A stretch of 64,000 bases of DNA from Choanephora cucurbitarum. Lineage: Eukaryota > Mucoromycota > Mucoromycetes > Mucorales > Choanephoraceae. The position numbers and the translations under genes were made by a program. Where the stretch lies: the NCBI GenBank assembly GCA_025331435.1, contig JAIWNI010000027.1, forward strand, positions 62,001 to 126,000, written 5' to 3'. This document shows, in pieces, positions 37,923 to 38,696 of the stretch. Below the pieces are notes generated by a model, which was not told the DNA's origin, did no database searches, and worked only from the letters and a program-made list of their open reading frames with translations. The number at the start of each line of letters is the position of its first letter. The first letter of the stretch is position 1.

Positions 37923-38696
37923 TTATTTCTGTTCTTGCTGAATTTTGTCTTGCATCACACTAACAATAGCTGAATCATAAATTGTCTTAGTTACTGCCCT
38001 TCTTATATAGATTAGCAAAATTCTCACCTCTTAATGTGCTCTGCTTATCAGTGATTGTCTTTTCAAGTGTACCGAGATTCTTCTTGACATAGTCTACTTT
38101 GTCGTTATAGAACTTGGAAGCATCTCCGACAGACTGTGATAGGGAAGTTACACGTGTCAGCTCTATTTTTTGACAACATATCCCTTTTTCTTTCTTATAC
38201 CTTTTCGATATAGTAACCAGTACCAACATCCACAATCACCTTATTGACATCACTAATTTTACCTGGAACATAGAGGTAAACATCAAGGTTAAGGAATTAA
38301 AAAAGGTTATACATAGTAGTTAGTTTTATGCAGACAATAATAAAAAAAAAAGGATATAGATGAAGTGAGAGGCACAAGAATAGTTTTGTCTATAGAATAC
38401 ACGTACAGTTAAGTGATTGTTAAAGTTACTCTAGAACACAATTACCATCAGCTCGTTCAGTCTTTAAGGCATTAACACTATCAGCACAATCTGTGAATCT
38501 TGCTTGAACACCCTTAAGTTTAGTATAAGATTGTGTCAAATGGCTTAATTCCTATATCAAAAGGGAGGGAGGATAGATAAGGTGAGTGGAGGTTTTCTAG
38601 GTTATTTTGTCAAATAGATACCTCTTCAAGTTGAGATTTCACTTGTTGCAATGAAGCCAAATCGAGATCAGCAATATTCACTTGTTGTTGAGACAT
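37923..38696 (-). CDS. prefoldin subunit 5 (Gim5/PFDN5)
   Basis: Alpha-type subunit of the cytosolic hexameric prefoldin chaperone, which passes actin and tubulin to the CCT chaperonin. Six exons: 38696-38622, 38551-38446, 38389-38358, 38275-38201, 38133-38028 and 37969-37923. They give 146 residues (human PFDN5 is 154). The N-terminal helix reads IADLDLASLQQVKSQLEEEL. The central strands read LVPLTSSLYVPGKISDVNKV then VDVGTGYYIEK, the family hallmark. The C-terminal helix ends VMQDKIQQEQK. The 32-nt third exon is recovered only by accepting an AT-AC intron (see separate entry). The last exon is recovered by splicing out a GT-AG intron, which otherwise leads to an earlier stop at 37987. It lies 104 bp downstream of the formin start region on the same strand. 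Confidence 0.93.
38276..38357 (-). other. U12-type AT-AC intron (82 nt) in prefoldin 5
   Basis: On the minus strand the intron starts ATATCCTTTTT, the canonical U12 donor. It carries TTCCTTAAC (38296-38288), the canonical U12 branch site. It ends TTTAC about 11-12 nt later, at 38276. Removing it joins LVPLTSS to LYVPGKISDV in phase, restoring the invariant core of prefoldin 5. No GT-AG pair restores that sequence. U12 spliceosome components have been described for some Mucoromycota, so the host could splice it. Confidence 0.9.

Follow-up and report, generated by a model that had tools for sequence, protein, structure and literature searches.

Here, we describe an intron in the prefoldin subunit 5 (PFD5) gene of Choanephora cucurbitarum, a fungus of the order Mucorales, which, judged by its sequence, is very probably a functional U12-type (minor-class) AT-AC intron. 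It lies at positions 38357-38276 on the minus strand of the window, the whole 64-kb stretch of DNA that was analyzed, and we infer that it is spliced out in the cell. The most interesting part is its probable sharing of position with a minor intron of vertebrates despite different termini.

The gene extends from 38696 to 37923 on the minus strand and consists of six exons, amounting to 441 nt including the stop codon and encoding 146 residues. Its parts and the signals of the third intron are as follows.

38622..38696, minus strand: exon 1, 75 nt, starting with ATG
38446..38551, minus strand: exon 2, 106 nt
38358..38389, minus strand: exon 3, 32 nt, ending in ...LVPLTSS
38276..38357, minus strand: putative U12-type AT-AC intron, third of the gene, 82 nt, phase 0
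38347..38357, minus strand: predicted 5' splice site ATATCCTTTTT, 10 of 10 positions matching ATATCCTTTT and agreeing with the donor RTATCCTT
38288..38296, minus strand: predicted branch site TTCCTTAAC, 9 of 9 positions matching, 12 nt from its end to the 3' border
38276..38277, minus strand: predicted 3' splice site AC, closing 12 nt after the branch motif
38201..38275, minus strand: exon 4, 75 nt, starting with LYVPGK
38028..38133, minus strand: exon 5, 106 nt
37923..37969, minus strand: exon 6 with the stop codon, 47 nt

The protein of this model matched PF02996 (Prefoldin) with 102.5 bits over residues 23-143 and TIGR00293 with 110.9 bits over residues 15-143, so that the domain spans nearly the whole protein, as in a prefoldin subunit 5 of the alpha class. 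Human PFDN5 chains aligned over the exon 3/exon 4 junction and were gapless there (LVPLTSSMYVPGK). A deposited C. cucurbitarum protein, P0001 (146 amino acids), is 100% identical to the model over 100% of its length, and the junction had thus been annotated correctly before now. That the segment might be a pseudogene or an assembly error is hardly conceivable to us. The open frame, the identical deposited protein, and the lack of a second copy below E 1e-5 contradict this reading: below this threshold, the protein matched nothing but four exon pieces in contig C190, the next two matches, elsewhere in the genome, had E values of 0.23 and 0.99, and further prefoldin-family matches were located in C21 and C294. 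It is also contradicted by a second C. cucurbitarum record, discussed below, which fits the same branch site and AC border.

All stop-free, in-frame choices of the exon 3/exon 4 borders with GT, GC, or AT donors, AG or AC acceptors, and a length of at least 30 nt were enumerated. Among these, 38357-38276 was the only one to yield LVPLTSS|LYVPGK, and with it LVPLTSSLYVPGK and the 146-residue protein. The AT-AC termini are therefore set by the reading frame, and the other enumerated borders were discarded on the grounds of frame and conservation. Keeping the 82 nt in the transcript model introduced stops. The AT-AC junction joins codon TCT (S) to codon CTC (L), giving the predicted spliced sequence CTTCATCT|CTCTATGT. 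The reconstructed exons and the motifs bear out what a sequence-only reading had proposed for the gene, the borders 38276..38357, the phase, the length of 146 residues, and the U12-type class, and its claim that removal of the 82 bases restores the conserved LVPLTSS-LYVPGK proved to apply to this choice uniquely among those enumerated.

The four remaining introns of the gene are GT-AG introns, and it could be asked whether the third is likewise an ordinary U2-type intron with a different border, its minor-class motifs being coincidental. A stop-free GT-AG choice of this kind exists (GTCTGCATAA...TATGTTCCAG), producing LVPLTSS-ISFFFYYC-KISD. However, it substitutes ISFFFYYC for LYVPG, a motif conserved among intact Mucorales proteins, human (MYVPG), and most other fungal proteins seen, and it lowers the Prefoldin score to 84.8 bits from the 102.5 bits of the AT-AC model. 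Moreover, its donor GTCTGCATAA is unusual, and the exact minor-class motifs, of which 0.01 are expected per window, would be left unexplained. We therefore regard this explanation as highly improbable and retain the U12-type AT-AC intron.

On the minus strand, the intron reads ATATCCTTTTT...TTCCTTAAC-CTTGATGTTTAC. A U12-type branch site, TCCTTRAC, is expected about 10 to 20 nt upstream of the 3' border, and minor introns have no long polypyrimidine tract between the two. Here, TTCCTTAAC is found 12 nt upstream of the border, agreeing with the 11 to 12 nt given previously for the distance to the AC acceptor, and CTTGATGTTTAC contains no long pyrimidine tract. Donor matches to ATATCCTTTT in the four other introns reached 7, 4, 3, and 4 of 10 positions, compared to 10 of 10 in the third, and their best matches to TTCCTTAAC 6 to 7 of 9, compared to 9 of 9. 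Within the window, the pattern TATCCTTN{25,55}TCCTTRAC occurred once, with a mean of 0.01 in shuffled sequences (one of 100 shuffles had one match). A crude joint probability from base composition, for a 9/9 donor at the site fixed by homology and a 9/9 branch site with 15 allowed places, is about 1e-9, a calculation which is applicable because homology fixes the intron site independently. Genome-wide, the pattern matched 16 times and its reversal 8 times; this merely twofold excess is a point in favor of coincidence, and motif matches without coding context are thus not strong evidence. A point against the minor class is that minor introns were reported to tend to avoid phase 0, the phase of the PFD5 intron, in a study on Rhizophagus (PMC10639083).

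The donor and branch site also bear on a further possibility, namely that the AT-AC intron is spliced out by the major spliceosome. U2-type AT-AC introns exist in animals. They are not known to carry the exact minor-class donor and branch site, both of which are perfect in the PFD5 intron. The missing long pyrimidine tract between branch site and AC and the presence of candidates for all minor snRNAs in the genome speak against major-class splicing as well, which we consider most improbable compared to splicing by the minor spliceosome.

Database proteins suggest that this intron has left its traces in the annotation of Mucorales genes. Our sample, the best 120 of 725 prefoldin 5 proteins, comprised 49 Mucorales (assigned from labels and known taxonomy), 4 Umbelopsis, 1 unlabeled, and 66 other proteins. 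In this sample, LVPLTSSLYVPGK was present exactly in 24 of the 49 Mucorales, all 4 Umbelopsis, the unlabeled, and 29 of the 66 other proteins, and the other 37 of these 66 differed from it by substitutions. In 25 of the 49 Mucorales records among these best 120 (P0007, P0013, P0019, P0021, P0023, P0025, P0027, P0034, P0036, P0037, P0039-P0049, P0051, P0053, P0070, and P0116), it was lost or garbled, with a mean of 3.8 of 13 identities; 21 had a gap in the core and 4 foreign residues. Core gaps were found in none of the 71 proteins from outside Mucorales in the sample, and a nearby insertion in one of the 66. An initial pattern had flagged 32 of the 120 as not intact; seven of these (P0065, P0082, P0093, P0099, P0100, P0101, and P0112) are non-Mucorales proteins with core substitutions only and were counted as undamaged. 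Intact and damaged records coexist in C. cucurbitarum, Mucor lusitanicus, Helicostylum pulchrum, Thamnidium elegans, Rhizopus microsporus, and Parasitella parasitica. The expectation that gene finders would garble this gene was thus half borne out: P0001 is correct, but another C. cucurbitarum record and 24 further Mucorales records are garbled at this segment. Of the 49 Mucorales prefoldin 5 records among the best 120 of 725, 25 are wrong in the most conserved segment of the protein.

The damaged records are informative as to the 3' border. In the nine that keep LYVPGK, the preceding residue is Y (eight) or H (one), encoded by TAY or CAY, which never end in AG; provided that this codon directly adjoins the LYVPGK codons in genomic DNA, this argues against an AG border before LYVPGK. 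Five damaged records read at least seven codons further into the intron. In P0007, P0025, and P0013, FLN or VLN precedes four further codons, which is consistent with TTCCTTAAC or GTCCTTAAC plus 12 nt; no branch motif can be made out in frame in P0048 and P0049. In the second C. cucurbitarum record, LYVPGK is preceded by FLNLDVY, which fits the branch site and AC border found here. Attributing the damage solely to the 32-nt exon 3 was rejected, since the shortness of this exon could account for its being skipped, but not for the Y or H that precedes LYVPGK (9 of 9). Apparently, the damage in the 25 records is due to the intron, and an AC-bordered intron seems to have been kept across Mucorales; this would imply ATATCCTT...TCCTTRAC...AC at the same PFD5 boundary in other members of the order.

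In human, PFDN5 has been reported to contain a minor intron (PMC8034651), and the U12-type 3' site of PFDN5 was described as also serving a U2-type 5' site (PMC10853781). From the fungal exon borders, an exon-skip join of QLDQ to MYVPGK was predicted and used as a search query. It matched a 109-amino-acid mouse isoform, P0121 (a cluster of 43 sequences), with 100% identity over 100% of the length. Among the best 120 of 467 proteins, 82 are normal in this region, 13 skip the exon and continue at M70 (in P0151 with S in place of Q), 2 start at M70, 22 have other residues immediately upstream of M70, and the segment is missing from 1. In a bat isoform, P0135, TSS is followed by VSFPQK and then M70, as would fit retention of a GTATCCTTTCC donor in phase 0. 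Six isoforms (P0129, P0130, P0131, P0133, P0134, and P0157) have FPL(I/T) followed by four residues, the last of which is Q, compatible with CCCTTGAY and a CAG border 13 nt further on. ALT occurs at this place in P0208, P0132 and P0212 do not fit, and 8 of the 22 deviating records, in which EVDS or EVDF precedes M70, are possibly processed copies and say little.

Vertebrate junctions thus fall at the fungal codon boundary (QLDQ|MYVPGK and TSS|VSFPQK|M), as seen at the protein level and with phase 0 taken from one bat isoform, and the isoform residues are compatible with GTATCCTTTCC and CCCTTGAY, as a minor-class intron there would have them. Given degenerate codons and related species, the isoforms support a GT-AG minor intron at exactly this boundary without proving it. 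An opposing view is that the Choanephora minor intron is real but lineage-specific, the coincidence with vertebrate PFDN5 being convergent or the vertebrate minor intron lying elsewhere in the gene. The vertebrate position was derived from protein isoforms, the relevant passages of the two papers state none, and phase 2 in the neighboring codon would likewise agree with an exon-skip junction taken by itself. In contrast, the full match of P0121 to the predicted join, the 13 of 120 listed vertebrate proteins joining the first exon to M70, the fit of TSS-VSFPQK-M to a phase-0 donor, and that of the six FPL(I/T) isoforms to the branch motif and CAG border make lineage specificity unlikely. It appears that the PFD5 intron is the orthologue of the minor intron in vertebrate PFDN5, which would share its codon boundary and have GT-AG termini. 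We lean towards the view that a PFD5 minor intron existed in the fungal-animal ancestor and has since remained at the same phase-0 boundary, its termini having changed (AT-AC across Mucorales, GT-AG in vertebrates), and that Mucorales are enriched in AT-AC minor introns.

The sequence-only reading had named the absence of all minor-spliceosome components from the genome as an outcome that would refute it. This outcome did not occur: one candidate each was identified for U11, U12, U4atac, and U6atac, two of them under the curated Rfam score.

C168: U11 candidate, 67.5 bits, above the Rfam cut-off
C292: U6atac candidate, 69 bits, above the Rfam cut-off
C346:5552-5711: U12 candidate, 37.9 bits, E 7.4e-5, under the curated Rfam cut-off of 53
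C289:203523-203663, minus strand: U4atac candidate (L008), 39.3 bits, E 3.9e-4, under the curated Rfam cut-off of 53

All four models were matched over their full length. The U11 candidate carries AAAAAGGGC at its 5' end, the U12 and U6atac candidates contain GAAUGAGUAAGGA and GAAAGGAGAGAA, respectively, and Sm-like sites are present in the U11, U12, and U4atac candidates. Fourteen control genomes gave no match for U12 or U6atac and, at a lax threshold of E<=1, one bacterial or archaeal match each for U11 and U4atac, both under the cut-off. Stem III of U12 was described as atrophied in basal fungi (PMC4133162, in part), a possible reason for the low U12 score obtained here. Pairing of U4atac with U6atac was predicted at -37.2 kcal/mol, a value reached by 2 of 500 shuffles. 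At the 5' splice site, UCCUUUUU is predicted to pair with AAAAAGGG of the U11 5' end. Shuffled sequences did as well in 12 of 500 cases for the 5' splice site with U11, 69 of 500 for the same site with U6atac, and 53 of 500 for the branch 9-mer with U12, so that these short pairings fit the assignment but are not telling. Within the branch 9-mer, UCCUUA is predicted to pair with UAAGGA of U12, leaving the adenosine at 38289 free; the prediction for a longer segment prefers a different register, on a downstream CCUUG.

Two of the five minor-spliceosome-specific protein families sought were found in the genome. Ubiquitin_4, which we take to be the SNRNP25 family, scored 39.9 and 30.7 bits in two adjoining pieces, above the cut-off; a 38-amino-acid piece had no match among solved structures at E<=1, and the identity as SNRNP25 thus rests on the family model. 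PDCD7 scored 33.0 bits, above the cut-off, and the same piece matched a PDCD7 chain with an E value of 0.0018. No U11-48K finger turned up in the genome, and one archaeal control did match. CCDC84 (CENATAC) and SCNM1 gave no match in the genome or any control, so that their absence says little. PFD5 provides a simple gene from outside the animals in which the requirements of AT-AC introns can be examined, in a genome in which the search for CCDC84 (CENATAC) found nothing.

In the minor-intron class, the general mechanism proceeds from U11 to U12 and U4atac/U6atac. Applied to PFD5, U11 would recognize ATATCCTTTTT, U12 would pair with TTCCTTAAC with the branch adenosine left free, U4atac would deliver U6atac, and the minor spliceosome would join TCT (S) to CTC (L), restoring LVPLTSSLYVPGK.

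Most fungi lost their minor introns. Each conserved case in Mucorales is therefore a point for dating this intron class and for studying the interchange of AT-AC and GT-AG termini. The PFD5 U12-type AT-AC intron with its candidate machinery is new in detail, but known in kind. Intron databases or supplements may already list this intron. Rhizopus oryzae and Phycomyces blakesleeanus, likewise Mucorales, were described as having minor snRNAs along with minor introns of both the AT-AC and the GT-AG type (Bartschat and Samuelsson 2010, PMC2846911, in part), with one AT-AC and two to three GT-AG minor introns in the former and eight to nine AT-AC and 8 to 12 GT-AG in the latter; in Phycomyces, AT-AC introns account for about half. 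These are other species, and prefoldin is absent from the main text of that report. The vertebrate PFDN5 minor intron (PMC8034651, PMC10853781, in part) concerns the same gene and, by isoforms, the same codon boundary, but its isoforms are compatible with GT-AG termini, whereas those in Choanephora are AT-AC. For Rhizophagus irregularis, fungal minor introns, four minor snRNAs, and several minor-specific proteins were reported (Larue and Roy 2023, PMC10639083, in part), with 205 minor introns predicted there compared to seven obtained here by a strict pattern, and its PFD5 protein P0101 is undamaged at the segment. Lichtheimia corymbifera likewise belongs to Mucorales and has U11, U12, and U6atac; U4atac was not found in Lichtheimia and was present as one inconspicuous copy in other basal fungi (PMC4133162, in part), whereas a candidate is present here. 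In Apophysomyces, both U12 and U4atac were reported absent from the genome (PMC5604411, in part). The U4atac candidate L008, under the Rfam cut-off, comes from a Mucorales genome; earlier papers had not found U4atac in Lichtheimia or Apophysomyces.

Seven of the 16 genome-wide pattern matches are readable as introns, and six of these seven, including that of PFD5, are AT-AC. The other six are as follows.

C201:70266-70325, minus strand: L017, DCP2 (mRNA decapping enzyme), AT-AC, 71 nt, phase 1, branch-to-border distance 10 nt
C314:460330-460398: L021, DIS3L1-like gene, AT-AC, gapless over the junction, branch-to-border distance 26 nt
C324:74751-74811: L022, LSM12, AT-AC, branch-to-border distance 28 nt, four AC choices open
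C135:94240-94307: L014, candidate in an unnamed host gene, AT-AC
C1:537954-538013: L009, candidate, AT-AC, branch-to-border distance 18 nt
C90:181023-181091: L013, GT-AG candidate in a cullin-2-like gene (weak similarity)

In L017, further stop-free acceptors are open, and choosing the AC at 10 nt yields an alignment to Dcp2 that is free of gaps; in L021, an AG choice at 35 nt is likewise open. Two of the six AT-AC introns, L009 and L014, are without host identification: the 48-amino-acid piece of L009 had no Pfam match and presumably resembles a TBC protein. AT-AC as the rarest class, as had been stated for the PFD5 intron, is not visible in these numbers. AT-AC minor introns have tighter donors, and the strict pattern probably favors them, so that six of seven is not an unbiased ratio.

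The other nine matches were set aside, L010, L018, and L023 for a T and L015 and L019 for a C preceding TATCC, L011, L012, and L020 as a single repeated sequence (TCCTTGAC), and L024 for TCCTTGAC; of these nine, L010, L018, and L024 were translated. The near-identical L011, L012, and L020, which match the minor-intron pattern twice in C46 and once in C292, look like a repeat family.
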